This document shows, one piece after another, positions 19,315 to 62,833 of a stretch of DNA of 64,000 nucleotides. The position numbers and the translations under genes were made by a program. Each line of letters starts with the position of its first letter. The stretch's first letter is position 1. Source of the stretch: Loxodes magnus (taxonomy: Eukaryota > Ciliophora > Karyorelictea > Loxodida > Loxodidae); NCBI GenBank assembly GCA_946699065.1, contig CAMPDV010000521.1:1-64000 (forward strand), given 5' to 3'. The notes under the pieces were generated by a model. It saw nothing but the letters and a program-made list of their open reading frames with translations. It ran no database searches and was not told the DNA's origin.

Positions 19315-20709
19315 TCAGTTATGACTTCTAATACTTCTATAACTCAATTTTTCTAAATCAATTCTCATTATTGAAAATCTTAGCGCTTCTACAGCAAAAG
19401 CATATCCATAGTTATTTCTTATTTTCATCTCCGTTAAAGCTGCAACATCTTTAAAAATTTAACTTTATTGTCATTATTATTTGCTTCTTTTATATATTCT
19501 TCTTGAAAATTCTTTCGTATAATAATTTTTCATACCTCCACATATGACAAAAGGCTCTAAAGAAACTATAGGATAAAATACAGCTTCAGGAAGATTCAAA
19601 TTTTACTTACTTCATCTATCATTCTATATGTTATATTTTCATATATCTTTTAAAGTTTATCCTTTCTAATTTACACCTCCAAAAGAATAAATATTTTATT
19701 CATCTTTATCTACTACTAAAGTTTAACCTGCTATTTAAAATGAAAACTAGGAACAGTTTTATCATTTACTTTAGTTTCCTATTTTTAACTTTTCTACTGA
19801 TTATAAAACCTTATTATTATCAGTTAACCCTCCAACCACATAAACATATTTTTAAGCAGCTGCTATTCCAAAGGCACATCTTCCCTCATTTAGATCACTA
19901 AATTTTATTCTATTACCTTCATAATCAAATTATCAAGTTTCTTTTATTCCTTTATTTTAATTTCTGTTATATCCTCCAATTAAATATAACTTATTTTAAT
20001 ATTCTATACTTTTATTGCCATCAGGAATTATAATTTAAACTTAGACTTATCGTAATTACTCTGTTTAAATATTAAATAAACTTAATTTTTAAATATCTCA
20101 ATTAAAAAAGTGAATATAGTTAGATTATATAAAGTGTTAGCTTAGTTTATGTTAATTAGTCTAAATAATATTTGGTTACTTAGTATTGTGTTATAGTTTT
20201 TATCTTATTAGATTGTAAGTTAATTTAGACTTTAGTATTGTAGGTGGTTATGAGTTATATTAGAGTATAGTTGGTTTTAGTGATTAGTAGAATTAGATAA
20301 TATTTGAGTGTTATTTTTGGTAGATAAATGTTGGTTAATGATTGATGATGATATTAGTTAGTGGTATTATGAGAGTATTACTAATGTTTGATTATTTGGT
20401 TGTAATGGTTTTAGATTTTTCCATAATTTACCTCCTTATCTCTTTTAATTTCTATCTAGCATCTTAAATCTTTTATATGTATTATTAGTTTTAAAATATC
20501 ATTCTTATTAAATCACTTTCTTAAGGTAAATCATCAAATCTAAAATGGAATCCTTTTTAACAAATAGGACATTACATTATGCCTTATAATCAGTACTCAG
20601 TATTCAAACACAAACCACAGTAAATATGTCCACAAGGTAAGACAGTTGGAAGAGCATTAGTTAAGTTGTAATCTTCTAAGCAGATTAAGCATTTTGGTAA
20701 CGCTTACAT
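19315..20709 (-). CDS. RING-kelch protein, copy 1
   Basis: 464 residues plus stop, no frameshift. Residues 7-50 form a C3HC4 RING finger (C7, C10, C26, H28, C31, C34, C47, C50), the usual E2-binding domain of ubiquitin ligases. Residues 97-200 are a low-complexity Ile/Asn/Gln/Thr linker whose coding strand is almost free of G. From about 237 kelch repeats follow (YLIGGYN, YVYVVGGL, IYSFGGV, FVICGG), expected to form a substrate-binding propeller. Trp codons 40, 204, 259, 316, 357, 366 and 413 are all TGA; the final TGA is followed by several TAA. Divergent from the CCHC gene starting ~390 bp away. Function as an E3 is inferred from architecture. Confidence 0.9.
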
Positions 20710-20739
20710 TTTTATTATTATTTAGACTACAAAAGCTAT
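20157..20739. repeat. ~580-bp invariant core shared by four copies
   Basis: From the linker through the RING start codon and about 30 bp of leader I see no difference between the four copies by eye, including third codon positions, whereas the kelch half and the facing gene differ at roughly one site in ten. Confidence 0.8.
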
Positions 20740-21096
20740 AAAGGTAATTTATAACAGTTACCATCAAAAATTAGTATATAAATATCTATTATTACATTAT
20801 TACTTTATTTACTTAAATACTACAATATTAAACTATTATATCAAGTAGCAATCTCACATTCTGCATGCCACCAGACTTGGATAGAGATTGCTAGGTAAAT
20901 TTAACAAAGGCATGAAAGAGCTTTACAAAATATCTTTGATATTATTTTTAAGTAAAACGTCTCTATCGCAAAATATTATAACTACTAGAAGTAATGCAGA
21001 AAAAAAAGGATAGAAATTTAAAATCTAAGCGACCTATCAAAAAAGTAGGTAATTTAGAACATCATATCAAATCTCAGCTCTGTGCAAATCATTATA
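20710..21096. promoter_or_regulatory. Divergent intergenic region, probable bidirectional promoter
   Basis: Separates head-to-head RING-kelch and CCHC ORF1 genes in all four copies (also 32920-33318, 48507-48900 and 62834-63221). It holds a short GC-richer segment with imperfect symmetry around 20848-20895 (AGCAATCTC ... GAGATTGCT). That it is a promoter is inferred from position only. Confidence 0.4.
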
Positions 21097-23250
21097 ATAG
21101 AAGAAGAAAAGAACGAGCAAATACCATAAAATGAGGAGGAAAATACACAGCTCAAAACTGCTAAAAGAGTAGGAGTTACCTGTTTCAATAAATGTTTATA
21201 AGAAAATTTCTACAACCAAAGACTCAGTCCAGCAGAAATGCAAGAAAATGAAATCGTTCAAGCATTTCTCAAGATATCTGAAATAAGAATATGGTAAAAA
21301 TATTGAGAGTATGAAAATCTTTCAGACACTAATAATTTTTATAGAATTCAAAAATAAGGAAACACTCACACAATTCGGAAATAATTAAACATAGAATATT
21401 AGAAATGTTGTAATACCAACAGAACAAAGAAATAAAGAGGAATTCTACAACATTAAGAACTACCCGATTCACTGAACATTTAACATGTATTCAAGTTTAA
21501 GCCAGGTAGAAACCCATCTATATCAGTACAGAAAAATAATATGTACACAGAGATCGGAACCGTTAAAGGTTCAACGTGAGCCAATGGGAAAATGAAAAAT
21601 TATTTAGAATTGAAAGAGATCAAAGTTGATGAAAGTTTACTAGATAATCAAGACGAAGGAGATATAAGCACTTACTTGAGTTATCCATCAATTTGAAAAT
21701 GTATGAACTGTAACCGAAAAAGGCTCAGCTCAAATTAATGCTTAAGAAAAAAGCTATATGGGAAGCAATTAAAAATGCTAAGGAAGTAAAAATCAGGTTG
21801 ATACATTCAGAAATCAGGAATAAAATGCCTTACTATAAAGAGAAACAGATCATGAAGGAAAAGAAGGTGAAGAAAACTGAAGAGGATTAACTTTCAAATA
21901 GAATATCACTTTTTATTTCTAGTAAAGACAACAAGTTTAAGACATACTAAAATTACTTTAAAAGCGATCGACTAAAATAGATACTTAACTTCAAAATTAA
22001 ATAAATAAAACTGAGGCAAAACTATCAATGTCACAAAAAACAGAAAGTAAAATAGGAAATATGGAAAAAAAACTGAAAAAACTAGAAAACAGTGACAGAA
22101 AGGAAGTATGCATAAATACAGCACTGTCTCAAAAAATATAGAAAAAAATATATAAGATGATAGTATTGAGTAAAAAAATTGAAGAAAAAAGTACAGGAAA
22201 AATAATAAACATTAGAACGATTTGGTTTTCACACTTTAAAGAAGAGGAGGCTAAAAATGCAGGGTAGGAAGATCAAGAAAAATAGGAAGTACAAAGAAAT
22301 ATTAAATAATAAAATAGACAAAATTAAACATAGGCACAGCAAATTTCAGAGGAATAAAATCAAACAAGGAAGAATTAAACAAGTTTATGTGTAAAGGAAG
22401 ATAGAAATTATGGCAATTTAAGATATATTTGCGGATCAAACTGATGAAATACCTTATTTATACAGATTCAGAGCAATAATAAAATTGAGCAAAAAACACT
22501 ACAAAAGAGTAGCATTTTATATAAACGATGGAACTACCAGTAGAACCAAAGTATTGAATATAACGGATCTCAATCAAGCAGAATTATTTTAGAGAGGAAG
22601 ATTAAATGGTTTAACACTTGATGATCATGATCGGCTGGTATTGAAAAACGTATACAACATCCGACTCTGATTAGCTAATACCCTTTTATGAAAGTCTTTA
22701 ATATTAAAAACAAGCAGCAAATAGATAAATTTTAATTTTAGGGAATTTTAATGAGCATAATAATGCAGGTTAATACTTATTTAACTTGATAAAAGATTAT
22801 ATTTTAGATCGTAAAGATCCAAATCAAGATTCAAACTTCATCACAACTTAAGGAAAAGGAAAATTCAAAATAGAATACTTCTAAACGAAACAGTATATAT
22901 TTCCTAACATTATCAGCACAAAATTCTATCAATAGAGACCAATAGGAGATTATTAGTCAGACAAAATAAAGATAAAAATTACGAAAGAATATCGAAAAAG
23001 CCTATAAATTAAAAGGATAAACTTTCAAAAATTAAAGCAGAAAAGATTCTGGAGAGATTCAAAGAATGATTCGAGTAAATGGATCTTAGTGAATTCGAAA
23101 ATTTTGATAGCGAAGCATAATATGAAAAATGATCTGAATATATCAAAAAATCTACCAAAGCGATATGTGGCTTTGTAACAAATTAAATGAGAAAATACTA
23201 ATATACAGCAGAAATAATAAAACTAAGAAAAGACTTATAATAGCAGGCGG
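21097..23250 (+). pseudogene. LINE-type CCHC ORF1 and APE endonuclease (family D), copy 1
   Basis: ORF1: the expected ATG is ATA. Frames give VGVTCFNKCLQENFYNQRL, then (with TGA as Trp) an RNA-binding-like segment (YPIHWTFNMYSS), then a zinc knuckle KCMNCNRKRLSSNQC with Leu at the His position. ORF2 begins near 22330 with NFRGIKSNKEELNKF, DIFADQTDEIP, KRVAFYINDG and ILILGNFNEHNN (usual GDFN, Asp changed to Asn), then FKIEYFQTKQY: an APE endonuclease. No reverse transcriptase is recognisable after about 23100. Several frameshifts. The order matches LINEs whose ORF1 has a CCHC knuckle. Confidence 0.65.
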
Positions 23251-24850
23251 AATAAGTAAAATATCTAATTAGATAAGGATACTAAGAAATTGATAATTGA
23301 ATTAAAGTGAAATAAGAAGCAAGGAGAAAATTTAGACTGCATCATAAAAAGATAGGAAAAATAAATTAAATATTTTCTTAGATGAAACTAGTTAAGGAAA
23401 CTTGAAAAGGAGTATAAAGATAATTAAAGTAGAGAAAATATGTACTATTGACATTAATAAAAGGTACTTCTATCAATAATGTTTAATTTAAATATATAGC
23501 ATTAAAAGAATATCTAGAGTAAAATCTTGCATCTATTAGCTTGATAGTACATTTATACTGGTAGAGGATATTTAGGTTATGTTTAGCGCTGAATATGAGG
23601 TACTAATTAGACTATATTTATTAGTTAAAGGTATAGTCTTATGAAGACTAAGTTGTTGACTTAGATTTAAGTAGTCTATACTTGCATTTAAAATTAGAGG
23701 TAAATAATTTAGTATGTTTTTAAGTTTGGAAGATATATTGAAATAAGTATTTGATAAAATCTAAGGAGTATTAAGGTATAGCTTAAGCATATAGGCAAAT
23801 TAAAGTTAGAAAATATAGTAATAAAAGTTGATAAAGCTAAGTATAATATATACTATCTCAATTATATATTTTAAGGTATATAAATAAGCTAGTGATATCT
23901 ATTAGGTAAATAATAAAGCTCAGATTTAGTATGAAGCAAATTAAACCTAATAAATTTCAGTAAGTAATAGAACGTTAAGTTTAGAAAAGAAAATATAGAT
24001 TAACTTCAAGCTAAATAGGAGTAAGATATTATTAATGAAGTCAACTCTTAATTCACTTACTAACAAAATTTGAATCAGTTTAGTTGATTTTAGTCTAAAA
24101 GTGTGTTTTGACATGCTTAGTAAGAAAGTTTGACTAGAATCTGTAGGAAATAGAAGCTGGTAAATAACTTTGATGAGCAAAATAAAGTAATGTTATTATA
24201 TAAAAAGCTTAGTTAACTTGAATAAATAGCAGAATATTTTAAGGTTATTCATGTTCTAAGAGATTTTATAGGGATTTGAAGATAAAGAGTATATCAATAG
24301 ATAAATTATATCCCTAAACTTGAGGGAATAAAATAAATTTATTAAAAGAACTCTAAAAATGAACGAGAGTATAACTATCTAGCTTCTTTTCATGTAAGAA
24401 GTCAGATATCTAATGGTTAGCTTGTATTATTAAGAAGTCAAGGAAAGAAGTTTGATAAAGAGGAAATTCTTAAGAAATATTAAAAAAGATTAATGATAAT
24501 TAGAATCATCCTGAGTTGAATAAAAAATGTAAGATCAAGAAATAATTTGTCTTCAGAATAAATTATCTAGACAATATAGAGATATAAGATTTGAAAGATA
24601 AATAAAGAACTTTATTTACTTAAGAAAGAAGAGTAGATGATTTTAGTTTGAATCAAGAACGTATATATATAGTATATTATAGAGATTATCTTAAGTTATA
24701 CTTCTAATGCTTTTAGTCATTATAGAAAATTAAATTAATGCATAAATACGAGTACTAAGAAACGCTATACATTCTAATTAATTTGATATATGTTTATAAG
24801 AGTTTTATTATAATTTACTTAATAAGAAATTATTAAGATTTTATTTTTAA
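23251..24850. other. Undeciphered stretch after repeat copy 1
   Basis: A plus frame at about 23950-24190 (containing LVDFSLKVCFDMLSKKVW) and another at 24358-24660 (from MNESITIQLLFMQEV) have protein-like composition with TGA as Trp, but I could not match them or fix starts and stops. They may be exons of an unknown gene or remnants. Confidence 0.25.
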
Positions 24851-24854
24851 ATTT

Positions 24855-27800
24855 ACCACAAAATATCCATTATTTTCATATTTCTGTCTTCCTAACTAGC
24901 AATATTAGTAAAACTTTGTTCTACAAGACATTTGACGAATCCTTCTATTTAATAACATGTCTTAACAATACTTTACTATTCCATTATTTTCCATATTTAT
25001 ACTCTTTCTAGGTTTTCATTTGGAAATCTTGCTTGATGTCTAAATAATTAGTCTAGGGGTTATTTACAATGTCAATTGGTATGACTTTTGATAGATATTT
25101 TAGATGATTAGTAAGGCACTTTTTAGAAATTTTAGATTGACAATGTAACATCCTTGTTGATCTACTTCTAGGATACTTTTGTTTAACTGCAGGTTCTTAA
25201 CTTTAATCTTGCTATTAATTCTCCTAATTGAATAGCTAAACCTAAATTTCCTCTATTAATCATTTGAATTTCTTATATAAAAACTTTATCTATTTTCTCT
25301 TAAAAATCCCTTATAGATATTTTGCTTAAGTTCATACTTGATAGAACTCCAAGATATTGGGTCTTTATTAATATTCATACTAAAAGCATCTTAATAGCAA
25401 ATTATTAATTTAGTGAGCTTACTAGATCATTTATCTTCAAAAGGTTATAATTAAATCTAGGTAACTGTACAAGGTATTAACTTGTACAGAATCAGAAAAA
25501 CTCATAATTGATTAAAAAGTAAGTTTAAGGGTATAAAGCTATACTTTTAACTTTAGAGTACAAAGATAAAAGATCTATCTCAGTTATTAATCATATAAAT
25601 GATTATTCAATAAGCTTCTATATTAGTCATTTAAACTCATTTTTCAAATATTACAATGTATAGAGCTTCATATATATAGATTTAGGTAAAAACCATTCAA
25701 ACAAAAACAGACTATTATTAACTCTTTAAAACTTATATAATCCATTCTTTTACAAGGACAATCAACTTTAGCTTTATTTCCACAAGGACATTCTATTTTA
25801 CAATTTGCTTTATGGATCACAAAGGCACATTTTAGACTATTTATTCAATCGGATTTGAATAAGAGATAGTGGCTTTTCCTATTTAGATACTTACAATGTT
25901 TCCTATTAACTTGATTCATTTTCATCTTTTTTAAAATTTTGAGCATGATATTAATCCAAAGCTTCTTACACCTTACCTAAGAAGCTATATGTTGATTCTT
26001 GATGCTTGACAGATGTCTAAATAATCTAATAATACTTGTCACTATTAATTTAAGAAGCCAACTTGCTTTCTTGTTCTAATTTTATAGCCAATATTCTAAC
26101 TTCTGACTAAGAAGAACAGCTTGATTTGGCTAAAATATCTCTCTACTATCTCTTATCCGTTTGATTTGGCTTTTAATTAGGATGGATATAAGTGTATATA
26201 ATTTGATTTATAGATGTCCTTTAGAGCTGAGGTTAATAAAGGCGTAGCTAATCTTGCATATAATTAGATAATAATGAAATAAAGGCCTATGGCTAATTGA
26301 TGGCATTTTCATATGTTTCTCCTTTAATACTTTGATGGTTATTAATTGGTAGCTAGCTATATATATAAGTGCTTCTTTTGAAGGTTGCTTGTGTTTTTCA
26401 TTTGAGATAAATCTCTTAAAAATAGAGTTTCTTAGATAGCTATATTATTATACATAAGAGTATCTAATGGATATATAGTAATTAATACTCCAGATATTAA
26501 TAAATCTCTATAGAAGGGATAATTCTTAATTATTAGTAAAGTAGAGATAAAATGCCATATATGATGTATTAAACTCAGTTAGATATATAAAAATGAGCTA
26601 AATCTAGTTAATAGCTAATTAATATATGCAATTAGACAGTTAACCTTACTCCTATCATTAACTCAAAAGTGTTTGATGTAAACTGAAAATAGGGAAGTTT
26701 ATAAAGGTTATGTAGCAAGATATTAAACTGCAAATTGCTAGGATCTAAATAAGAAGCTAAAATACTATAATGTTGATTATGATCTCTATTAGCATCTTAA
26801 ATACTTTTAACTATTTACTTAGTAAAATTGTATACCTAGCTAATCACTTAAAGACTAGAATCAATAAATTTCATAATGTCACTCAATCTAGAGTATTGGC
26901 CTAATATCATTAGTATGTCTTAATGATTGTTTAAACTCATCTTACTGAATTTTAGATGTTTTTTCAATAATTTTCAAAAGCTTAAGGCTTATAACTGGAA
27001 ATTAAATTAAGATTTGTACAGAAGATTAAAGCTTTTTTATAGAATTATGTAAATAGGTCAGCTTCTTATTTTTCAACTAGGTATTATGCTTCAGTCAATA
27101 TCTTAATTATTATCTTGGATTAAAACAAGCATAGAAACTAGTTCAAGAGTAAGATATCTTTATTTCTAAAACTGTTACAAATTACTTGTGCCAATCAAAA
27201 AAAGACTCACAAAAACATTCAGCTTTTATTTTTCTTGCTATGATAGACAAACTGATTTCAGATTATAGTTCCTTAATATCTTTCTACTAGTTTAATCTAA
27301 AGTGGAAAAAAGTAAATATTCTCTATATAAAGCGAAAGAAACCATCCATAAAAAAGTAAGAGATATTATTATAGTGCAGGTACTTAATTAACTTCAATTG
27401 ATCAATTTCATTTAAAAAACTTGCTTAAATAAATAAATCTTTTAGAAAGGTTAAAGATGAATATTCCCCTTCTTTGAGCCTTAGCCAATAAGAATTAAAA
27501 GAGTATAATTAGATATTCGTTATTGTAAAATAGGTCCAACATTTAAGTTCTTCTACTTTAATTTTCTTCTTCCAATTATTCTTATAAAGCTAAAACTTCT
27601 ACTCCTTATTTTTACTTTTATTCTTGTAAATCCTTAATTTAACACAAGCTATGGAGCTAATAGCTGGTTTAAGACTTAGAGCCTTCAAAATTTAACATCA
27701 TCAAAGATACCTTTTAATTTCATATTTATATGCAAATTTCCATTTACCATCATAAAATCAATATATGCACTTTTCATCCTCATTATTATGTAAATCATAG

Positions 27801-27900: not shown

Positions 27901-28113
27901 GCTTTAGATATGAGACAGCACTATGTTACATAATTAATCAATGCAGATTAGTTTTTATATCTCTAAGTTAATGGACCAGAAGTCTATAACTAATTCAGAC
28001 TAAAGCAGTTTATAACACTAATGGACTAATACTACTTAGTTGTACTTTGATTAAGAAAATGCAAACTCTTTGCTTTTATATAATACTACAACTGGACTAA
28101 TCTTACATTTTTA

Positions 28114-31524: not shown

Positions 31525-32919
31525 TCAGTTATGACTTCTAATACTTCTATAACTCAATTTTTCTAAATCAATCCTCATTATTGAAACTCTTGGTTTCTCT
31601 ATAGCAAAAACATATCCATAGTTATTTCTTATTTTCATCTCCGTTAAAGCAGAAATATCTTTAAAAATTTAACTTTATTGCCATTATTCTTTGCTTCTTT
31701 TATATATTCTTCTTGAATAATCATTCGTAAATTCATTTTTCATACCTCCAAATATGATAAAAGGCTCTAAACAAACTATAGGTTAAGCAACAGCTTCAGG
31801 AAGACTCAAATTTAACTTACTCCATCTATCATTCTATATATTATATTTTCATATATCTTTTAAAGTTTATGCTTTCTAATTGAACCCTCCAAAAGAATAA
31901 ATATTTTATTCATCTTTATCTACTACTAAAGTTGATTCAGCTATTTTGAAGGGAAATTAAGAGCAGTTTTATCATTTACTCTAATTTTCCATCTTTAACT
32001 TTTGTACTGATTATAAAGCTTGATAATTATTAGCAACTCCTCCAACCACATAAACATATTTTTAAGCTGCAGCTATTCCAAAGCCACCTCTTCCTTCATT
32101 TAGATCACTAAATTTTATTCTATTACCTTCATAATCAAATTATCAAGTATTTTTTATTCCTTTATTTTAATTTTAGTTAATTCCTCCAATTAAATATAAC
32201 TTATTTTAATATTCTATACTTTTACTATTTTATGGAATAATATCTTAAACTTAGACTTATCGTAATTACTCTGTTTAAATATTAAATAAACTTAATTTTT
32301 AAATTGTATAATCAAAATAGTGAATATAGTTAGATTATATAAAGTGTTAGCTTAGTTTATGTTAGTTAGTCTAAATAATATTTGGTTACTTAGTATTGTG
32401 TTATAGTTTTTATCTTATTAGATTGTAAGTTAATTTAGACTTTAGTATTGTAGGTGGTTATGAGTTATATTAGAGTATAGTTGGTTTTAGTGATTAGTAG
32501 AATTAGATAATATTTGAGTGTTATTTTTGGTAGATAAATGTTGGTTAATGATTGATGATGATATTAGTTAGTGGTATTATGAGAGTATTACTAATGTTTG
32601 ATTATTTGGTTGTAATGGTTTTAGATTTTTCCATAATTTACCTCCTTATCTCTTTTAATTTCTATCTAGCATCTTAAATCTTTTATATGTATTATTAGTT
32701 TTAAAATATCATTCTTATTAAATCACTTTCTTAAGGTAAATCATCAAATCTAAAATGGAATCCTTTTTAACAAATAGGACATTACATTATGCCTTATAAT
32801 CAGTACTCAGTATTCAAACACAAACCACAGTAAATATGTCCACAAGGTAAGACAGTTGGAAGAGCATTAGTTAAGTTGTAATCTTCTAAGCAGATTAAGC
32901 ATTTTGGTAACGCTTACAT
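31525..32919 (-). CDS. RING-kelch protein, copy 2
   Basis: 1395 bp, the same length as the other three copies, and no frameshift. RING residues are identical to copy 1. Trp 366 and 413 are TGG here but TGA in copies 1 and 3, while Trp 40, 259, 316 and 357 are TGA. Position 204 reads Tyr. The kelch half differs from copy 1 at many residues (YLIGGIN, VYVVGGV, SFGGFN, FIIFGG) but keeps every glycine pair. Equal length plus intact frame indicates the protein has been under selection or copied recently. Confidence 0.9.
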
Positions 32920-33318
32920 TTTTATTATTATTTAGACTACAAAAGCTATAAAGGTAATTTATAACAGTTACCATCAAAAATTAGTATATAAATATCTATT
33001 ATTACATTATTACTTTATTTATAGTATTAATTTAAATACTACAATATTAAACTATTATATCAAGTAGCAATCCTATATTCCACATGCCGCAAATCTCAGA
33101 TCGGGACTGCTTATTAAATTTAATAAAGGCATGAAAGAGCTTTACAACATATTTTTTATATTATTTTTTAAGAAAAATGTCTCTGTCGCAAAGTCTTTAA
33201 ATTACTAGGAGGAATGCACTAAAATAAGGGACAGAAATCTAAAAATAACCAACCTATCAAAAAAAAGTAGGCAATTTAGAACACCAACTCAAACCAAAGC
33301 TCTATGCAATTCATTATA

Positions 33319-43640: not shown

Positions 43641-43658
43641 TAGTTTCCATATTGATAG

Positions 43659-45713
43659 TTATCAGCTTATAGTTTTAAAGTTTATTTTAAGTTTTGTAAA
43701 TTTTGCTTATTAGCTAGTATTTCTTCAATACTATCATTATAATGGATTTAATTAATTATTATATTTAATTGATTAGTTATAGAATTAAAGTCACTTTTCT
43801 TTACTCAAAAGTATTTTCTCAATAACTTATAAAGTAAGAGTTAATCAAATAGGCTAATATAGCTAAAATATTTTCTTAAGTTTAAAGAAATTATTCATGT
43901 TCTTACCTTTTAATTAGATATTAAATAGTAAGATAATTACAGTTTAATGGTGAAAACATATCTGTTTGCTATTCAAATTACCTTTATTTATTTAGTCCAT
44001 GAAAATGTTAAATTTTTCAATCCATTATCTCCTTTTTGTTATCTTATGTTAGTATACAATATTTTCTTTATCTCATTAAATTTATTTTTGATACTTTTTT
44101 AATTCATTTCTTAAACGTTTCTTTTAAGTATTAGCAACATATCCACAACTTAATTTAACTTCTTATTTTTCCTATATCATTATCTACCTTAACCAGCTTC
44201 AAAGAATATGTAGCTCATTGTGAAGCTTTTCCAATATTTTTCCAATTTTCAGTTTTTAGTAATATAACCTTCTTACTTATGATCTATATCTGCTATTTTA
44301 ACAATTAATAGATATCATCTAGTATTCTTTCCTAAACAATTCTTATGCTAATTATGCTATTAGTCCCTTAAAAAATAGTCTTAAACTTTCTTTTGTAGTA
44401 ATCTAGGTTGGATCTTATGCTGAATTATTGCATTATAGTTTTAATTAATTCTAATAGCTACTATCCTACTGGATTTAGTTTATTTGCTACAAATTATGTA
44501 TATGTGCATTAAATCTCATACTATACTTATAAACTTAAATTGCTTTTAATTAGGCTTTCATAGAAACCGATTCATTATTCCTCAAGTAGGCGCATATACA
44601 TTAAGTAAGATTCATACAAATTACAACCCTTCCAGTATTTCATTTTATTCCATTTACTTCATACTCTCTCCATATCAATTCTTCTTTAATATATAAAGCC
44701 ACTCCTTTACTAAGTCTAGTTCCATTATTCCTTTATTTCAAGCATATCTTTAATTCAATCTATAAACACTTCTTGAGTCACCATAATATATCTTTTTCAA
44801 GCATTCATTTACATAACTCTTCTTTGTTCGACTTTATTCCTCTTATATTATCAGTTCTTATGTTAATTTCAAATATTCACATTTTCTTTATCTTCATTGT
44901 TTGATTCTTTAGTATCATCAATTTAGCTTAGTCTTTTTCAAAACCAAATTACTCTAATGTTCGTATTTATGTTCAGGTTTTATGTATCCTATCTTTTCTC
45001 ATATTATTTCTTGTTTATTATTCAAAGTAATTGCATCAGTTATCAAAATAGCTAGTTACTTATTGAACTTTATTTTTTTAAAAAGTTCTATAATTCCATT
45101 TTTTCTCTCATGATGTTAAACTTTGGCTTTTCCATATATCTAAGTAGCAGAAATCATTTTATCTCAGCATTTATTCAGTTAAATAATCTTTTATTATTCT
45201 ATCAATTGTTGCCTATCTCATGTATAATTTATTTAAGCAATTTTATACTTTAGAATCTAAATTTTTGCATGCTTCTCTTCTTTAGCATTTCTTTAGTTTT
45301 TCTATTTTTATTTATATATCTTTTATTTCAGTTTGTTATTTCTTTTTACATTTTCTACCACTTTTTTTGATACTCCAATATAACTGATTATTAGCTTGAT
45401 TTATTTTTATCTTCTATATTACTTAGTACTGTGTCTAATTTTTAGACAATTTACATATCATCATATTGCCAATTAATTTAACTTTACAAGTAATCTTTTT
45501 TCTTCTAGCCAAGTAGGAATATTTTTTGGATAAGTGGTTCGAATATTTCTATGTACATAGTTGTTCTACAATCAAGTCCTATTATTCCTTTTATTTTAAG
45601 CAAAACTGTTTTTTTTATATTTCCGAAGTCTTTTAACTATTTTTATGTTTGAGTTAAGCAGTTATCTAACCTAAAGAGTATTTTATTAGTTCATTATATT
45701 TTCTTTTCTCCAT
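43659..45713 (-). pseudogene. LINE ORF1 plus APE endonuclease remnant (family C), copy 3
   Basis: Nearly identical to copy 1 over the endonuclease half. The ORF1 start MEKRKYNELIKYSL is kept (ATG at 45713) but soon frameshifts. No reverse transcriptase. Confidence 0.55.
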
Positions 45714-45786
45714 CCTTAAAACTTAATTTGGATGTTGCTGAGTAGTTCTTACTGGTTTATCATATTAATCTCGAAATTTATTATAT

Positions 45787-46543
45787 AAAAAAATGGTCCC
45801 GAAAAAGTAATCACCTATCTAGCAAAGCTCAAAATGATTACTTAATCGATCTGGAATTTCTCTTAAGTGAGAACTAAAAGCTATAATATTCGTTTCAAGA
45901 GCCAAAAAGAAATATAATAGTCCTATAGGAAAGCATCACTGGAATTCACATCAATAGTAATGAGATCGAATAGCAACTTAATCTTATTCCTTCGACTGAA
46001 CAAATTAATTAGAGAATTTAAGCGACCGGAGCAAAAATAGAGTTTTTCCAATAATATAATCTACAAATTTGCGAAAAATGGATTTCTTAGAACATGCAAA
46101 ATCAAGGAAACTATCCTATGGACATAGAAGCAAAAGATCCATAGTAATTTATTATCAGGAAAATAAAATTGAATGCTGATACTGTAAAAAAATGGGACAA
46201 AAGATAAGAGACTGTTGGTAGTTATTAAAAAAACAAGAATACAAAAGCCAAAAATAAGGGTATAATTTAAAAAAGTTGTGAAACACGCAAGATGGCAGAA
46301 TATTCAGAAAAAATGATTGTAAATCACTTAGAATGCCACTTAAATTCAAGCGGTTGTAAGTAATTTTAACAGAATTTGGTTAGGATTCGACACAGAAGAG
46401 ATACTGAGAAAGAAAAGATTCATATTTGTCAAGAGAGATGATAACGAAGATCGGAAAAAATTTAAAGTAGAAGGTGAATTTTATTAAACTTAACAAAAAA
46501 TTTGATTTGTGGCAATACTAATAATGTTGAAATTAAGATAATC
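45787..46543 (+). mobile_element. MxPKK insertion in repeat copy 3 (gene copy e)
   Basis: 757 bp flanked by TATTATAT (45779-45786 and 46544-46551). The gene starts at 45793, MVPKKQSPIQQSSK; after one slip it reads DYLIDLEFLLSENQKLQYSF and a helical stretch (NLIPSTEQINQRIQATGAK). The zinc knuckle reads ECWYCKKMGQKIRDCW: both Cys pairs present, Trp as TGA, His ligand replaced by Gln. At least two frame changes, so a pseudogene. Confidence 0.65.
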
Positions 46544-46551
46544 TATTATAT

Positions 46552-47111
46552 TATCTTATCTTGAGATTGAGTTTTTATCGAGAGTTAAGGTATTAAGGTG
46601 TTATAATGGCTTGGCTTTATTATTGGTTATACAAGGAACATTTTTAAGTGTATAAATTTTAGTTTAAATGATTACAGGAATAATGTATTTAAGGGTTTAA
46701 GATGTTGGCTTGATGATAGTAGTGATGACGTAATTAGTATTTAGATATAGATATAGCTTAATAATAATTTGATTTAGTTTTGATTTGATTAGATAAATAA
46801 TAGAGTAATCTAAGTAGTACTTGTATAATTTGAATATAAGGATGTATTTAATGAAAGGTCTTTTGACTATGTTGAATATGCTTTGGTATGTTATAAGTTG
46901 TATGTTTGTATCTGAATAATGATAATATTTGAATAATAGATTTTTAAAGATGTTTAGATAAAATTTGATTCTTTATTTATTTCAGACGCTTTAAATATTT
47001 TAATAAGCAGTAATATATTTAACTAATTATAGATCTTTAAACTACTTCTTTACATATGAGACTATATTTATTATAAATATTATTAATAATATAGATATTT
47101 TATTATGTTTA
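46552..47111. other. Conserved AT-rich stretch before RING-kelch copy 3
   Basis: Counterpart of 18761-19314; no separate gene seen. Confidence 0.4.
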
Positions 47112-48506
47112 TCAGTTATGACTTCTAATACTTCTATAACTCAATTTTTCTAAATCAATCCTCATTATTGAAACTCTTGGCAATTCTAAAGCAAAAACAT
47201 ATCCATAGTTATTTCTTATTTTCATCTCCGTTAAAGCAAAAACATCTTTAAAAATTTAACTTTATTGTCATTATTCTTTGCTTCTTTTATATATTCTTCT
47301 TGAATATTCTTTCGTAAATGGATTTTTTATACCTCCAAATATGACAAAAGGCTCTAAACAAACTATAGGATATAAAACAGCTTCAGGAAGACTCAGATTT
47401 TACTTACTTCATCTATCATTCTATATGCTATATTTTCATATATCTTTTAAAGTTTATCTTTTCTAATTTGCACCTCCAAAAGAATAAATATTTTATACAT
47501 CTTTATCTACTACTAAAGTTTAGCCTTCTATTTTAAATGGAAATTAAGAGCAGTTTTATCACTTACTTTAGTTTCCTATCTTTAACTTTTCTACTGATTA
47601 TAAAGCTTGATTATTACTAGTAATTCCTCCAACCACATAAAAATATTTTTAAGCAGCTGCTATTCCAAAACCACCTCTTCCCTCATTTAGATCACTAAGT
47701 TTTATTCTATTACCTTCAAAATCAAATTATCAAGTTTCTTTTATTCCTTTCTTTTAATTTATGTTATATCCTCCAATTAAATATAACTTATTTTAATATT
47801 CTATACTTTTACTATTGTATGGAATTATAATTTAAACTTAGACTTATCGTAATTACTCTGTTTAAATATTAAATAAACTTAATTTTTAAATTCAGTAATT
47901 AAAAAAGTGAATATAGTTAGATTATATAAAGTGTTAGGTTAGTTTATGTTAGTTAGTCTAAATAATATTTGGTTACTTAGTATTGTGTTATAGTTTTTAT
48001 CTTATTAGATTGTAAGTTAATTTAGACTTTAGTATTGTAGGTGGTTATGAGTTATATTAGAGTATAGTTGGTTTTAGTGATTAGTAGAATTAGATAATAT
48101 TTGAGTGTTATTTTTGGTAGATAAATGTTGGTTAATGATTGATGATGATATTAGTTAGTGGTATTATGAGAGTATTACTAATGTTTGATTATTTGGTTGT
48201 AATGGTTTTAGATTTTTCCATAATTTACCTCCTTATCTCTTTTAATTTCTATCTAGCATCTTAAATCTTTTATATGTATTATTAGTTTTAAAATATCATT
48301 CTTATTAAATCACTTTCTTAAGGTAAATCATCAAATCTAAAATGGAATCCTTTTTAACAAATAGGACATTACATTATGCCTTATAATCAGTACTCAGTAT
48401 TCAAACACAAACCACAGTAAATATGTCCACAAGGTAAGACAGTTGGAAGAGCATTAGTTAAGTTGTAATCTTCTAAGCAGATTAAGCATTTTGGTAACGC
48501 TTACAT
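47112..48506 (-). CDS. RING-kelch protein, copy 3
   Basis: 1395 bp without frameshift. All Trp codons seen in the kelch half (259, 316, 357, 366, 413) and Trp 40 are TGA; the Trp of the linker junction is shifted one residue (FNYW). The kelch signature glycines are kept (YLIGGYN, FYVVGGI, SFGGAN, FVIFGG). It is closer to copy 4 than to copy 2 in several codons. Confidence 0.9.
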
Positions 48507-48900
48507 TTTTATTATTATTTAGACTACAAAAGCTATAAAGCTAATTTATAACAGTTACCATCAAAAAATTAAGTAAAAATATCAACTATTACATTATTAC
48601 TTTATTTACTTAAATACTACAATATTAGGCTATTATATCAAGTAGCAATAATATATTCCACATGCCGCCAATCTCGGATCGAGATTAGTTATTAAATTTA
48701 ATAAAGATATGAAAGAATTTTACAACTTAATCAGATCTTTGATAATATTTTTAAGAAAAATGTCTCTATCACAAAATATTATAACTACTAGAAGTAATGC
48801 AGAAAAAAAAGGGATAGAAATCTAAAATCTAGGCAACCTATCAAAAAAGTAGGTAATTTAGAACATCATATCAAATCTCAGCTCTGTGCAAATCATTATA

Positions 48901-49745
48901 ATGGAAAAAGAAAAGAAAATAGCAAATTACTATAAAATGAGGACTAGATCATGTTGCTTAAAACTGATAAAAGCGAAGGAGTTACCTATTTCAATAGATT
49001 TTTAGAAGAAAATTACTACAACCAAAGACTCAGTCCAGTAGAAATGCAAGAAAATTAAATTTTTCAAGCATTTCTCAGATATCTGAATTAAGAATATGGT
49101 AAAAATATTTAGAGTGTGAAATTCCTTCAGACAGGAATTATTATTATATGATTCAAAAATAAGGAAACACTCATGCAATCCGGAAATAATTACACTTGAA
49201 AAAGTAGAAATTTTGCAATACCAAAAAAGCAAAGAAATATAGAGGAATTCTACAACATTAAGAACTACCCGATTCATTGAACATTTAACATGTATTCAAG
49301 TTTTAGCCAGGAGAAACCCATCTAAAGCAATACGGAAAAATAGTATATACAGAGATCGAAACCGTAAAAGATACAAAGCGAACCAATGGAAAAATGAAAA
49401 ATTATTTAGAATTGAAGGAGATCAAAGACGCAGAAAATATACCAGATAAGTTAGACGAAAGGTAAAGCACTTACTTGAGTCAGTCTGGAAATCCCATACA
49501 CGTATCGTTGTGTCGCTAACCATCAATTTGAAAATGTATGAGTTGTAACCAAAAGGGCTCAGCTCAAATTAATGCTTAAGAAAAAAAGTTATAAAGGAAA
49601 CAATTAGAAATGCTAAGGAAGTAAAAACTTGGTTAATGCATTCAGAAATCAGGAATAAACAGGAATAAAATGCCTTGCTATAAAGAGAAACAGATAGCAA
49701 AGGAAAAGAAAGTGAAGAAAACTGAAGAACATAAACTTCAAATAG
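48901..49745 (+). pseudogene. LINE CCHC ORF1 (family D), copy 3, truncated
   Basis: ATG 48901, early frameshift, then VTYFNRFLEENYYNQRLSP and, with three TGA as Trp, IIIWFKNKETLMQSGNNYTW and YPIHWTFNMYSSFS. The knuckle begins CMSCNQKG but is out of frame after that. Carries a ~40-bp insertion at about 49480-49520 shared only with copy 4. Ends at 49745. Confidence 0.55.
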
Positions 49746-49776: not shown

Positions 49777-50843
49777 ATGGAAAACAAAATACAATTTACT
49801 AAATGCATTTTTTTGCGAAAACTCTTAAGATAACGAAACGGTTCCTTTGGAAGAATACAATTTCTTCTATTTAAATATGAAATCTTACCAAATTTATGCT
49901 TCTAAAGACTTGTTAGTAAGATCAACTACGATAAAAGTTAAGGTTTTTTTTAATATTTTTAGACTAAGTAATCACTGGTCACTCCTCATAAGTTTATTTG
50001 GTAGCCATATCAAATGACCTGAATTGAATTGTATCTAGTTCAGGATACCCTGAAAATTCTATAAAGATCTGGAAATTCCAGACTGCTACCCTTCTAAGAA
50101 CTTTATCGGGACATACCTCTTGAAATAGTTCGATAGTTATCCCACCTGACTAGAAATAAATTATATCAGCACATGAAGATACAACGATCAATATCTGAAA
50201 TTTTCAGACTGCTACTCTCCTTAGAATTTCATCGGGACATAACTCTTGAAGCAACTCGGTAGTTATCTTGCCTGAATAGAAATGAATTATATCAGCTTCT
50301 GAAGATACAACGATCAATATCTGAAATTTCCAGACTGGTATATTCCATAAAAATTTGGCAGGACATACTAATTGAGTTAAATCGGTAGTTATCTCCCTTT
50401 ACTAGGAATGAATCATATCAGCATCTAATGATAAAACGATCAAGATCTGGGATTTCCAGAATGGCCAGCTTATTCAAACTCTTTCGGGTCATTCAAGTTA
50501 TGTTTTATCGGTAATTTTATCTTTGGACAATAAGTATAAAATATCGAGTTCTTCTGATAAATCAATTAAGATATGAGACTTCTCTACTAGTTAGCTAGTT
50601 CGTATCTTTCAAGGTCACACGAAAGGTGTATCAAGTATTCAGTTAAATTCTGATTCAAGTGCTATATTTCCTGGTTCTTATGACCATTTAATCAAGATAT
50701 GGGATTTTAATACGGGTGTGTGTATATAGACTCTTTATGGGCATGCATAACCAATTGAATCTATAGCATTGAGTAGTGACAATAAATGGCTAGTATCTGG
50801 AGCAGATGACAATACTGTGAGGAAGTGGAGGATTGCGAGTTAA
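49777..50843 (+). CDS. WD40-repeat protein, copy 2 (intact)
   Basis: Exon 1 49777-49942 (MENKIQFTKCIFLRKLLRQR), 20-nt intron, exon 2 49963-50840, giving 348 residues in one frame. Repeats show GHSSQVYLV, GHTSWNSSIVI, GHNSWSNSVVI, GHTNWVKSVVIS and D-TI-IW strands, closing with VRKWRIAS. Of 14 Trp, nine are TGA (LNWIVS, TSW, NIWNF twice, NSW, QKWIIS, TNW, QEWIIS, KIWDFS) and five TGG. The next codon is TAA, aligned with the TGA stop of copy 1; it is either a stop or a Gln that extends the protein. A second ATG upstream at 49771 is in frame; 49777 matches copy 1. Scaffold role inferred from the fold. Confidence 0.85.
49943..49962 (+). other. 20-nt intron in WD40 copy 2
   Basis: GTTTTTTTTAATATTTTTAG: GT start, AG end, almost all T and A. 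Same position as the 22-nt intron of copy 1, and its removal restores the shared frame. Confidence 0.75.
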
Positions 50844-50859
50844 GAGTTGAGCAATAAAT

Positions 50860-55790: not shown

Positions 55791-55856
55791 AATAGAATAT
55801 TTTAATAAAAATATATCCATTATAAAATATATGTAAAATAAAAAAAATTTAATTTT

Positions 55857-57950
55857 GATATAATAATAATAAACAATAAGAGTTTCAATATTTGAAATAT
55901 TGAGACATAAATGCATAATTATCGGTAAATAATTAGGCAAATTATGTTAAATTTAAAAGTTCCTGCATTTTCAATCATGGCTCTCTTTCACTCTCATTTT
56001 GATAAGGGTTCGATTAGCTCATTAAATCTATTTATTGGTTTCTTTTAATAGGATTTATTTCTTCACTCTAGTCTTTAAAATATTTAATCTTCTTCTTAAT
56101 AATTATTGATGGAATATTTTTATGTACATATCTATTTAGTCATCTTACTTTCTGTAAATTATTGGTTAATATAGTTTTAGTCATATAAAATTAGTCTTAT
56201 TTAATCTTTTCCAGTAATTATTTTTTGCTTATTAAAATTCTTAAAAATGTCTGAATAAGTATTACATTGGAAAATGTGCTAAAATGTATCAAATTCCTAT
56301 CTACATAAACAAACTTAGTTTAATTATGTTTCGATATGTCGTTGAATCAGTTCATATTAAAAATTATAAGTGTAAGTTCTTAATTTATATATTGAAATAG
56401 TTTATTGGATTAGATGTCTATTGTATTTTGTGTATGTTATTAAAGGGAAGACATTATAATTACTTTCTATTTAATTAATAAATCTTTTTGCAGTTCACAT
56501 TACTGCATTCTTAGAAGAATTCTTTTTAGATTTAAATATTAAGATGCTTATTAAATTCTTTGAAATAATAAGTTATTTGAATATCTAAATTATATTTTTC
56601 AATGTTTTTATCTACATATTTCTTGTAGGGAAGGTTAAATTTAAGTTAATTTCAGTTTCTTTCTTTTTTTCTCAGAAATTAAACCGTTTCACATTTCTTA
56701 ACATTTATATTAAGTCTTAATCAAGTAAAAATTTAATAATTTTTGGGCGTTTTTTTAGGAATTTGCAAATTAAATTAAATCATCAGCAAAACCTAACACA
56801 AAGAAAGATCTGGAACAGATATTAAATCCTAATTTTTTTTAACTATTTTCTAAATATCTCAATGTCATAGTATAGAATTGCAAATACAGGATCATGATTA
56901 CTTCCTTATATAACAACATTATTAATCTATATTGTTCTAGTAAGATACCCATCAATAATAAACTTAGCATCAATATGTTATAAAATGATTCTAGAGCAAG
57001 AATTTAGTTTAATGGAAACCTCAGTTTTCTTAAATTATAAAAAAGTAACTTTCTATGTATACTATCAAACATCTTTTCTGCATCAATTAAAGTAGCAATT
57101 AATTATTTTTTCGTGATTATCTACAATTTAAATCAATTATTTATTAAGCAGTTCAAAATTAATTAAATAGTAGAAGTTTACAGAGAAATCCAAACTAAAC
57201 TAAGCTTAAAATATTTCGTTCATATATATAATTATTAAGCCTTTAAGTAATTACCTTATCATAAATTTTTAACACACACTTTAGCAAAGCAATAGGTTGT
57301 AATTACTTCAAATATTTTTACTTCCTTATTTGAAAATAGGAATTATATTAACTTTTTTTAAACCATTCGGTATATTAAACTTTCTAAACATATTATTTAT
57401 AAAAAAAGTAATTATTTTATATAATTATTACCCTCCATATTTAATAAGTTCAGATTTAAAACCATCCTGAGGCTTTATTGTTTGATAGTTAAGATATTAT
57501 TTTTTTAATTTAAAATTCCGAAAAAAAAATTCTCTAAAGATGACTCAATTGCTAGTTGTTAATAAAAGACTTATTTTTAAATATTTAATTTATCTTATTA
57601 TTCTATTTCTTCTTAACTAAGATTCGAATGGTTATTAAAAACTTGAGTTTCTCAACTGTTATTAAATAGTTAGTTTAATTATAATTAATTTAGTTACGAA
57701 TTTTTGAGTTTCTGTCTAATATAATTAAATCATCTTTTTCTATACTAATTTTACATATCATTTTATATTTTTGCTTAACCCTTATTTTCTCTCAAAGCTT
57801 CTTTCTATATAAACATTAAAATATTTTCTTATGAGATATATAGATATTTTTTCATCCAATACATTAATTTTAAATAGTTTCATAATTAACTAATGTCAGA
57901 TTTTCAATCCAAAATTAATTTATCAAATAATATAAAAATAATTAAAAGCA
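55857..57950 (-). mobile_element. Non-LTR retrotransposon B, 5'-truncated
   Basis: Minus-strand reverse transcriptase related to element A: DGFKSELIKYGGQQLYKIIT, KVNIIPIFKQGSKNI, LIDAEKMFDSIHRKLLFYNL (about 57,060) and an intact active-site block VLGFADDLIQFAN (about 56,780). Several frameshifts. The 3' end repeats the design of A: a hairpin (TCAATATTT/AAATATTGA, 55885-55903) followed by a (TTA)n tail. No endonuclease or ORF1, so truncated at the 5' end as is usual for LINE copies. Confidence 0.75.
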
Positions 57951-58149
57951 TTTCTTTTACATAAAATTGCCTTTTTTACTACATTTATTTAACTATTTCA
58001 CTTTTAGGACTCAACTATATTTTCAAAAATACAATTAAACATCTGCAATGCATCTCTCTATTGCAGCTCACTCTAACTTCACACTTATTCAATTTAATTA
58101 AAAACTTACTTGCTTTTGAACTTTACTAATTTTCAAACTTTAAAGCAAG

Positions 58150-59110
58150 CTTTGCACACTTCACTTTCTCACTATTTATCACCATCTCTTGATAAGAGTC
58201 ATTTGTTGTCCTTACTTAATGTAACTGAATAACCTTAAATGTCCTATTTAGGTTGTTAGATTATCGTCCGATAAAAAACTCAATAATTTGATAGTTTAAT
58301 CACAGTTATAAACTTATTACATTATTAAAATGTTCTGTTAAAGTTCGAATACATTACCTATCTAAAAGTCCCATATCTTTATTGTTAATTCTCTCTGTCA
58401 TTATGAATTTATTATCATTACTTAAAATTATCGCTTTAATCAGGTCTTTATGTTTTTGAAAAGCCAATACATTGCCAAGTTTAGAAATTTCATATCTTTA
58501 TATTCTTATCAAAACTTTCCGATATTATTTATTTATAATCTCATGTTAAAATTATCAATCTTACTCAATTCATATGACCCTACAAAGTACTCTTACAAAT
58601 AGTAATTATGAAGTCTCAAATCTTTATTTTATTATCATAATTCCTGTTATTATTTATTTCTAGTCATCCATTACATCTACAGAAAGAATATCTTCCTATA
58701 TCCTTCAAAGTACTCTTACAAGTCCCATTCAAAAATTATCATATTTTTATAGTTTTATCGGAACTTCCCGATACTATTCATTTCTAGTCACTTGCTTCAG
58801 TTACAGATAAGATGAAACCATTATGTCCTGCAAAGTCGCTAATTATTATGGTGATTCTAGTTATACGTTAGTTAAATTTGCTCCATTAAAATTACAATTT
58901 ATTAGACATGTATTTCTTAAATTGCCACCATACATGTTGGTCTTTTTTAAATTGCAATTTTACAGCAATATATCACTTAAATAAGCACCTCTAATTCTTA
59001 TTGCTTCTAAACTTTTATGTAAACGCATATTTAAATTCTTCATAATAGTTATGGTATTAGCTGAGGCTTGTTCTACATCATTAAAAGTTTTAGGTAATTC
59101 AATTACTTTT
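58150..59110 (-). pseudogene. Pentapeptide-WD40 protein
   Basis: The N-terminal lead-in EQASANTITIMKNLNMRLHK is followed by pentapeptide repeats (ILLQNCNLKKTNMYGGNLR; NCNFNGANLTNVQLESP), then WD40 strands in shifting frames: ASDQKWIVSGSSDKTIKIW, NKIKIWDF, GHMNWVRLIIL, SFDKNIKIWNFQTW and a final VRKW. Nearly all Trp are TGA. At least four frame changes, too many for introns alone, so it is probably decayed. It shares its lead-in and repeats with the gene at 54.5 kb and its propeller type with the two WD40 genes. Confidence 0.7.
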
Positions 59111-59399
59111 TAATTTTATAAGTTTTAACTTGAATTCTACTTGAACTGGTTTAAAATTTTTTTATTATACCATAATTAGATTTATTCAAATAATTTTTTT
59201 CTACTTTGGATCTGATAAAACTTGTTTTGAGAATTTTACTGCAATTATAACAACATTCTCATTTGATATCATATTATACCTTTTAAATTATATAATCACC
59301 TATAAATTTTCTACTTAATATGTCTACGAAACTTGATTCTTGGTTTCAGTTTACATGAATTTCGTTGAAACAATTTTGAGCTAACTACTGAGAGATTGA

Positions 59400-60840
59400 A
59401 TTTACATAAAACTCTTCATTTTAGAATTAGCTATAAGTCTAAATCATTTACTTTTATTATTTAAAGCATATCTTTGAATGAATCTATAACAATTTTTTTT
59501 GTTACCATAATATCTATATCTTTTTCAAGCATGAATTTACATAACTCTTCTTTGTTCGACTTGATTCCTCTAATGTTATAAATTCCTATCCTTAAATATT
59601 TTTTCAAATTATCAAATTTTCTTAATCTTCATTGTTTGATTCTTCCTATTTAGTATCAACTATTTATTTAGGATTAATTTGTCTTTTTCAAAACCGAATT
59701 ACTTTAATTTTTGTATTTATGTTCAAGTTCTATGTATACTATCTTTTCTGATATTATTTTTCTATTTATTATTGAAATTGATTGCCTCTATTAATTTTGG
59801 AAGCAAACTAGTTACTTGCTGGAATTTATTTTGCTCAATGGGTTTTAACAATTGCACCTTTTCCTCATGGTATTAAACTTTAGCTTTTCCATAGATTTAA
59901 GGTAGCTTAAAGGATTTTTTTAAGAATTTATTAAGTTAAATGATCTTTTATTATTTTATCAATTATTACCTATCTCAGGTTAATTTAAATAATTAGTTAA
60001 GCAATCATTATGCTTTATGATCCAAATTTTTGCTTGCTACTCTTCTTTATAATTTCTTTAGTTTTTCTATTTTTATTTATGTATCTTTTATTTCAAAGTG
60101 TTATTTCTTGTTACATATTCTACCACTTTTTTATGTTCAAGCATAATTGACTATTGACTTTGTTTCTTTTTGTCTTCTTCATTACTTAGTACTGTATCTA
60201 ATTTTTCGAAATTTTTCGCATCATTTATTGCCAATTGATTTAACTTTACACATAATTTTTTTCTTCCAGTTAAGTAAGAATATTTTCTGGATAAGTGGCT
60301 TCTGATAATTCTAGGTACATAGTTGTTGTGCCATCAAGTTATATGTTTCTTTTACTGTATTTAAAACTGTTTGTTTTATATTTCCAAAAACTTTTAACTT
60401 TTTTCTTTTGGAACTAAACTTTTGTAGTAGCGAATTAAGTAGTTATTACTTTTGAATATTAATTAATATTTCTCTTCTTGCTAAAATATCAAAAGATTAA
60501 TATTATCGTTTTCTATGCTAGAGAATTTATCAAATTATATTAATCAGATAAAAAAAATAGAATAAATTAAATTGGTATTTTTCGTACTTAATCTATATGT
60601 TATCCAAATTCTATATATCGGTACTGAAGAGTTCCATTAATGCGGCACATAATTTTATTATGCCTGATTTGTAATTTTTAAAATATCTCTTTATGAAAAA
60701 TTGAGATAGATTATTCTTATTCTTAGATGAAGTTTTCTACTTTATATTTTTAAAGTTACTTATTTTATAAAATTTTATTTTCTGTTAATTTTATTAGTTC
60801 AACATATTTTCCTAGCTTTTTTTCACCCTTAGATATCGCT
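59400..60840 (-). pseudogene. APE endonuclease and LINE ORF1 remnant (family C), copy 4
   Basis: The best preserved endonuclease N-terminus of the family: IYNIRGIKSNKEELCKFMLE and KDIDIMVTKKIVIDSFKDML (about 59,590-59,470). ORF1 upstream is recognisable by alignment to copy 1 but has lost its ATG and has many indels. Confidence 0.55.
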
Positions 60841-60911
60841 CCTAAAAACTTGATTTCTTAGTTGTTTTAATCTTACTGGTCTATCATATTAATCTCGAAA
60901 AGTTATTATGA

Positions 60912-61438
60912 TTGAGTTTTTATCGAGAGTATAGGAGTTGTAATGGCATGATTTTATTATTAGCTATAGAAGGACAATTTTAATTATATAGTAGTTCGTT
61001 TAAATTATTGAAGGAAATAATCTATTTTAAATTTGAAGATGTTGAAATAATGATAGTAATGATGATTTAATTAGTATTTAGATATAGGTATAGCTTAAGT
61101 ATTATTTGATTATAGTTTTGATTTGATTAGATAAATAGTAATCTAAGTAGTACTTGTATAATTTGAATATAAGGATATATTTAAAGATAGTCTTTTTGAC
61201 TGTGTTGAATATGTTTTGGTATATTATAAGCTGTATGTTTGTATCTGAATAATGATAATATTTGAATAATAGATTTTTAAATATGTTTAGATAAAATTTG
61301 ATTCTTTATTTATTTCAGACGCTTTAAATATTTTAATAAGTAATAACATATTTAACTAATTATAGATCTTTAAACTACTTCTTTAAATATTAAGATATAT
61401 TAAATAATATTATAAAATAGATATTAAAATTATGTTTA
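60912..61438. other. Conserved AT-rich stretch before RING-kelch copy 4
   Basis: Counterpart of 18761-19314 without the MxPKK insertion. Confidence 0.4.
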
Positions 61439-62833
61439 TCAGTTATGACTTCTAATACTTCTATAACTCAATTTTTCTAAATCAATCCTCATTATTGAAA
61501 CTCTTTTCTATTCGTAAGCAAAAACATATCCATAGTTATTTCTTATTTTCATCTCCGTTAAAGTTGCAATATCTTTAAAAATTTAACTTTATTATCATTA
61601 TTCTTTGCTTCTTTTATATATTCTTCTTGAAAATTCTTTCGTAAATCCATTTTTTACACCTCCAAATATGACAAAAGGCTCTAAACAAACTATAGGATAT
61701 AAAACAGCTTCAGGAAGATTCAAATTTTACTTACTCCATCTATCATTCTATATGCTATATTTTCATATATCTTTTAAAGTTTATCCTTTCTAATTGGACC
61801 CTCCAAAAGAATAAATATTTTATTAATCTTTATCTACTACTAAAGTTGATTCAGCTATTAAGAATGGAAATTAAGAGCAGTTTTATCATTTACTTTAGTT
61901 TCCTATCTTTAACTTTTCTACTGATTATAAAACTTGATTATTACTAGTAACTCCTCCAACCACATAAACATATTTTTAAGCAGCTGCTATTCCAAAGCCA
62001 CTTCTTCCCTCATTTAGATCACTAAGTTTTATTCTATTACCTTCATAATCGAACTACCAAGTTTCTTTTATTCCTTTCTCTTAATTTCTGTTATATCCTC
62101 CAATTAAATATAACTTATTTTAATATTCTATACTTTTACTATTGTATGGAATTGTAATTTAGACTTAGACTTATCGTAATTACTCTGTTTAAATATTAAA
62201 TAAACTTAATCTTTAAGTATCTCAATTAAAAAAGTGAATATAGTTAGATTATATAAAGTGTTAGGTTAGTTTATGTTAATTAGTCTAAATAATATTTGGT
62301 TACTTAGTATTGTGTTATAGTTTTTATCTTATTAGATTGTAAGTTAATTTAGACTTTAGTATTGTAGGTGGTTATGAGTTATATTAGAGTATAGTTGGTT
62401 TTAGTGATTAGTAGAATTAGATAATATTTGAGTGTTATTTTTGGTAGATAAATGTTGGTTAATGATTGATGATGATATTAGTTAGTGGTATTATGAGAGT
62501 ATTACTAATGTTTGATTATTTGGTTGTAATGGTTTTAGATTTTTCCATAATTTACCTCCTTATCTCTTTTAATTTCTATCTAGCATCTTAAATCTTTTAT
62601 ATGTATTATTAGTTTTAAAATATCATTCTTATTAAATCACTTTCTTAAGGTAAATCATCAAATCTAAAATGGAATCCTTTTTAACAAATAGGACATTACA
62701 TTATGCCTTATAATCAGTACTCAGTATTCAAACACAAACCACAGTAAATATGTCCACAAGGTAAGACAGTTGGAAGAGCATTAGTTAAGTTGTAATCTTC
62801 TAAGCAGATTAAGCATTTTGGTAACGCTTACAT
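61439..62833 (-). CDS. RING-kelch protein, copy 4
   Basis: 1395 bp without frameshift. Trp 259 and 366 are TGG here whereas 40, 204, 316, 357 and 413 are TGA; with copies 1-3 this gives three positions where TGG and TGA interchange. RING half identical to the others. Kelch glycine pairs intact. Confidence 0.9.

Follow-up and report, generated by a model that had tools for sequence, protein, structure and literature searches.

The 64,000 bases analyzed herein, referred to below as the window, belong to a contig (C521) of 88,234 bases in full length, and are rich in repeats with a GC content of approximately 25%. When the window is translated with NCBI table 27, four copies of a gene match the Pfam RING and kelch families, and they are accompanied by a coding stretch of WD40 repeats, a second, decayed WD40 stretch and the remnant of an ARF gene (Table 1). 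An earlier note on this DNA had proposed that TGA stands for Trp, beside TAA and TAG for Gln, as in the karyorelict (table 27) or the Condylostoma (table 28) genetic code.

Table 1. Features of the window and of other contigs. Positions given without a contig name refer to the window; codon coordinates in kelch copy 1 were counted by hand from its start at 20709.
Feature	Position	Strand	Details
RING-kelch copy 1	19315..20709	-	465 codons; 8 TGA (last = likely stop), 0 TGG; Pfam RING and kelch with table 27
RING-kelch copy 2	31525..32919	-	5 TGA (last = likely stop), 2 TGG (codons 366, 413); Pfam
RING-kelch copy 3	47112..48506	-	8 TGA (last = likely stop), 0 TGG; Pfam
RING-kelch copy 4	61439..62833	-	6 TGA (last = likely stop), 2 TGG (codons 259, 366); Pfam
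Codon 259, kelch copy 1	19933..19935	-	TGA; TGG in copy 4
Codon 366, kelch copy 1	19612..19614	-	TGA; TGG in copies 2 and 4
Codon 413, kelch copy 1	19471..19473	-	TGA; TGG in copy 2
Fifth kelch copy	start C521:78266	-	just beyond the window
Identical 5′ kelch block	20156-20739, 32366-32949, 47953-48536, 62280-62863; fifth copy C521:77713-78296		
WD40-repeat coding stretch	49962..50846	+	9 TGA, 5 TGG; Pfam WD40, 7 stretches, E 2.7e-54
Second, decayed WD40 stretch	11731..12610	+	broken; repeats go on in another frame
TGA at the WDVGG Trp, ARF remnant	4030..4032	+	Pfam Arf, E 2.8e-7
Two eRF1 genes (L010, L011)	C196:19713-20081 and C196:54613-54981		~35 kb apart
Tandem array, 4-bp-stem tRNA-Trp(CCA)	C67:482313-491186		48 among the matches listed; spacing 182 to 195 bases (~187)
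Tandem array, 4-bp-stem tRNA-Trp(CCA)	C148:157310-169431		at least 51 of the 52 listed C148 matches; spacing ~241 bases

The four RING-kelch genes have the same length (1395 bp), as had been noted before, and share one common 465-codon frame, all of them lying on the minus strand. Codons 259, 366 and 413 read TGA/TGA/TGA/TGG, TGA/TGG/TGA/TGG and TGA/TGG/TGA/TGA in copies 1 to 4, in exact agreement with the earlier note, and codons 40, 316, 357 and 465 are TGA in all four copies, codon 465 being the likely stop. Each of the genes ends with AAC TGA followed by TAA. Sense TGA occurs for the last time at codon 413 or 357 of the 465 (a figure from four relatives, not a genome count), the final 50 codons before the likely stop contain no sense TGA, and the 3′ flank is GC-poor; the GC content of the frame itself is 24-25%. 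The claim that TGA appears only where Trp is expected proved to be overstated, since codons 204 and 205 carry TGA at places with no conserved Trp. The four copies show TGA/TAT/TAC/TGA at codon 204 and GAT/ACA/TGA/GAT at codon 205, so that opposite these TGAs other copies carry codons for Tyr, Asp, Thr or Gly. The fifth copy reads TGA, TGA and TGG in the columns of codons 259, 366 and 413 and possesses one extra base near codon 441. Hence, the reported absence of frameshifts holds for the four kelch copies in the window, whose frames show no gap events, but not for the family as a whole.

We aligned the four copies together with approximately 1.15 kb of upstream and 1.5 kb of downstream sequence and summed the gap events over the six pairs, with the upstream flank taken to end 60 bases ahead of the ATG (~1.09 kb). 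The 1395-base frame exhibited 0 gap events and 5.1% difference, compared with 75 gap events and 13.6% difference in the upstream flank and 193 gap events and 25.5% difference in the downstream flank (~1.49 kb), a contrast that carries no probability since the pairs are not independent of each other. In the first 100 bases past codon 465 there are 11 gap events. Had TGA closed the frame, one accommodating 4 to 7 internal TGAs would hardly have stayed so clear of indels. The dN/dS ratio, obtained with a simple counting script for the variable part of the gene only, was 0.47-0.67 in all six pairs. Over the whole gene, the three codon positions have nearly equal shares of the differences, and amino-acid differences outnumber silent ones in each of the six pairs; thus, the constraint acting on the copies is weak.

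It could be argued that the host uses TGA exclusively as a stop, that its kelch and WD40 genes are pseudogenes in decay, and that their TGAs are nonsense mutations from TGG. The abundance of repeats in the window, the broken state of the second WD40 stretch, the frameshift of the fifth kelch copy, the TGAs placed off Trp sites at codons 204 and 205 and the weak constraint would all suit such decay. However, the lack of gap events in four frames whose flanks contain many of them on both sides, along with dN/dS values below 1 in every pair, argues against it, and so do both the TGAs found at Trp positions in two genes elsewhere in the assembly (described below) and the code published for the genus, together with the transcript analysis published at the genus level (PMC11441545, in excerpt). 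We therefore regard decay as a very improbable origin of these codons, and prefer to read the internal TGAs as sense.

The kelch copies share a further feature, namely a 584-base block that starts 30 bases ahead of the ATG and reaches into codon 185, and which is identical in the four copies and 99.8% identical in the fifth. Outside of this block the remaining gene is approximately 8% different and the upstream flank approximately 14%; judged from these figures, the 5′ part looks as if it had recently undergone gene conversion. Additionally, a direct duplication of approximately 5.9 kb (15846-21681 and 43649-49480; 93% identity) sits inside segments that recur each 12-15 kb along the contig.

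For the WD40 repeats, the earlier note had described an intact gene at 49777 with nine TGA and five TGG codons. These counts hold for the WD40 coding stretch, but the intact gene was not confirmed: the frame opening at 49777 matched no Pfam family, and the repeats sit in a different frame, so that one would have to invoke an intron, a frameshift or a different start. The proposal that TGA provides the W of the WDVGG motif in the ARF remnant was borne out, the remnant being matched by the Pfam Arf family. WD40 repeats are also found on other contigs. One of them (C1503, loci L001-L008) contains long arrays of a 126-base (42-residue) repeat, many of whose units are near-identical, and many further matches lie on contigs C119, C9, C1832, C620 and C272. 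The C1503 frames include 25-31 TGAs in seven of the eight loci and 5 in L005, and the Trp of their WD column is encoded 175 times by TGG versus twice by TGA over the eight loci. We gave these arrays little weight as evidence on the code, because their WD column is almost entirely TGG and the openness of their frames is a property of the 126-bp unit, which is a multiple of three.

To follow the use of TGA elsewhere, we searched the assembly (705,730,643 bases in 7,843 contigs) and took a sample of 22 loci amounting to 214,234 bases: 18 were taken at a fixed position of long contigs, one was selected for its eRF1, and three complete the contig of the window. The 15 coding segments counted in this sample, all above one fixed score, comprise 62 TGA, 95 TGG, 330 TAA and 180 TAG codons. 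Three overlapping segments of a retrotransposon-like locus (L029) supply 45 of the TGAs; the other 12 segments contain 17 TGA versus 80 TGG, with some of the 17 located at or past gene ends. Three sampled segments were aligned to solved structures with TGA entered as X. In both chains shown (ABCC2 and ABCC5), the only TGA of an ABCC transporter is matched by a Trp of the first nucleotide-binding domain, and in the weaker matches to the second nucleotide-binding domain it corresponds to Ile or Val. An anoctamin has two TGAs, one opposite Trp and one opposite Met, each in both chains shown (anoctamin-6 and anoctamin-1), and a dynein heavy chain segment has four TGAs, all of which fall outside the alignments shown. 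Together, the seven TGAs of these segments are thus divided into two at Trp, one at Met and four outside the alignments shown. Given that TGA is aligned to Trp in the ABCC transporter and the anoctamin, no special rescue has to be assumed for the genes of the window. The predicted use of UGA as Trp reaches beyond the window, and in the conserved genes seen it is sparing.

The release factor eRF1 is encoded by two genes on contig C196. One copy was compared with known proteins and is 95% identical to eRF1 of Loxodes striatus over 100% of its length, whereas the next-best matches, the other 119 among the best 120 of 7989, reach at most 59% identity; the taxonomy places Loxodes in the Karyorelictea. 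In both copies all four Trp codons are TGG and no internal TGA occurs. The earlier note had held that housekeeping genes using only TGG for Trp, with TGA confined to gene ends, would count against its reading; the outcome is mixed, as eRF1 does use TGG alone, but TGA stands at Trp in the ABCC transporter and the anoctamin. The eRF1 frames contain 20 or 21 in-frame TAA or TAG codons (13-15 TAA and 6-7 TAG), several of which align to Gln of solved eRF1, e.g., in GTLQGN, GGQSALRF and SQEGSQF. The surroundings of the NIKS motif read AHGRAQNIKSR and AHGRAQNIKSK in the two copies and EFGTASNIKSR in the solved relative. The best match to the eRF1_1 family lies on contig C2 (L009) and is, by eye, a putative Pelota. 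As read from the genes alone, the gene-end codon is TGA in all four kelch copies and in both eRF1 copies.

These data bear on the choice between the two codes originally considered. The DNA could come from a heterotrich resembling Condylostoma, with table 28, under which each of the three codons may be sense or stop. In the Condylostoma code UAA and UAG serve as terminators too. The sense meanings of UAA, UAG and UGA are identical in the two tables (PMC4967479, in excerpt), and on this point the sequence would fit either of them. However, an eRF1 95% identical to that of L. striatus, together with TGA at the end of the four kelch genes and of both eRF1 genes, makes a heterotrich origin extremely improbable. 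The proposal that TGA encodes Trp beside TAA and TAG for Gln is supported, and eRF1 points to table 27 as the code concerned.

No tRNA gene was found by a scan of the window, and a scan of the 22 sampled loci (214,234 bases) yielded one tRNA-Ser and nothing else. A search of the assembly with a tRNA-Trp-like pattern gave 279 matches, versus none for the reversed control. The 100 of these 279 matches that were listed comprise one tRNA-Trp on C110, 79 genes on C67 and C148 whose anticodon is CCA, and 20 with a GCA anticodon (Cys by position, unfolded); tRNA-Trp(UCA) was not present among the 100. ARAGORN folded two C67 genes (L034) with A.C at 27-43 and one C148 gene (L035) with U.C, so the anticodon stem of these tRNA-Trp(CCA) genes has 4 pairs, and that of L036 is a full 5 bp. 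An exact 25-base pattern for the 4-bp-stem type matched 124 times (reversed control, 0), and at least 99 of the 124 matches are located in the two tandem arrays; the 100 matches listed are divided into 48 on C67 and 52 on C148. The 5-bp-stem gene appears to be single, as the C110 gene is the only one at one mismatch or fewer among the tRNA-Trp-like matches listed, which are ordered by mismatch, and others may exist beyond this listing or at greater distance from the pattern. Mis-assembly of low-complexity repeats is suspected in Loxodes assemblies (PMC11441545, in excerpt); thus, the sizes of the arrays are uncertain.

According to published work, tRNA-Trp(CCA) with a 4-bp anticodon stem is found in Blastocrithidia, Condylostoma, Blepharisma, Loxodes and Amoebophrya, and the shortened stem raises UGA decoding (PMC13092985, PMC12005148, both in excerpt). 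The 4-bp-stem tRNA-Trp(CCA) with A.C or U.C at 27-43 most likely reads internal UGA here, and we infer that the tRNAs of the arrays are the UGA decoder in this species. Possibly, dosage contributes as well: a leaky 4-bp-stem tRNA-Trp(CCA) in at least 124 copies, next to a single 5-bp gene, may support the reading of UGA as Trp, a suggestion that we put forward tentatively and with some doubt. Under such a scheme the supply would come from two apparently separate arrays, which differ in spacing (~187 versus ~241 bases) and in base 27, and termination at the end of the mRNA would depend on outcompeting a near-cognate tRNA that is present in abundance. We found no report of array amplification of tRNA-Trp in the literature searched, which did not include the original Loxodes tRNA paper, and the main text of PMC11441545 does not use the word "tRNA" at all. 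If the short-stem tRNA-Trp is amplified, the dosage idea would become testable through both tRNA gene counts and tRNA levels, compared between ciliates that read UGA as Trp and ciliates that do not. The tRNA arrays, and likewise the 584-base block shared by the kelch copies, may be of further interest.

Taking these observations together, we are highly confident that the window is nuclear DNA of a karyorelict Loxodes read with table 27, in which internal UGA is most likely decoded by the 4-bp-stem tRNA-Trp(CCA); the source species is almost certainly L. magnus. In the proposed mechanism, UAA and UAG would be read as Gln, an internal UGA as Trp and a UGA near the mRNA 3′ end as stop, the context dependence of termination being taken from the literature. 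The use of UGA as Trp described here is a rediscovery, as it is already published for the genus. A code that gives a single codon two meanings, Trp and stop, is among the stranger facts of translation, and the earlier note recovered it from raw sequence alone.

The closest known system is the karyorelict code itself (NCBI table 27), in which UAA and UAG encode Gln and UGA, the sole stop, is Trp if it lies far enough upstream of the poly-A tail, sense UGA being depleted over the approximately 20 codons that precede the stop (Seah et al., 2024; PMC11441545, in excerpt). Our sequence resembles it in UAA and UAG as Gln, in UGA both as Trp and at gene ends, and in belonging to the same genus by eRF1. 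Moreover, sense TGA in the kelch genes ends at least 50 codons before the likely stop, ahead of a GC-poor 3′ flank. The one difference seen is the GC content of the kelch frame, which is lower than the mean of 33.5% given for L. magnus CDSs (PMC11441545, in excerpt). The code of Condylostoma magnum (table 28) is similar in that all 64 codons can be sense and UGA is Trp, and there nuclear tRNA-Trp(UCA) was not detected (Swart et al., 2016; PMC4967479, in excerpt); it differs in belonging to a heterotrich, whereas the eRF1 found here is that of Loxodes. Finally, the tRNA genes resemble the known 4-bp-stem tRNA-Trp(CCA) in their CCA anticodon and in the broken top pair of the anticodon stem, but differ in their number and arrangement, as the 124 pattern matches are mostly placed in tandem arrays.
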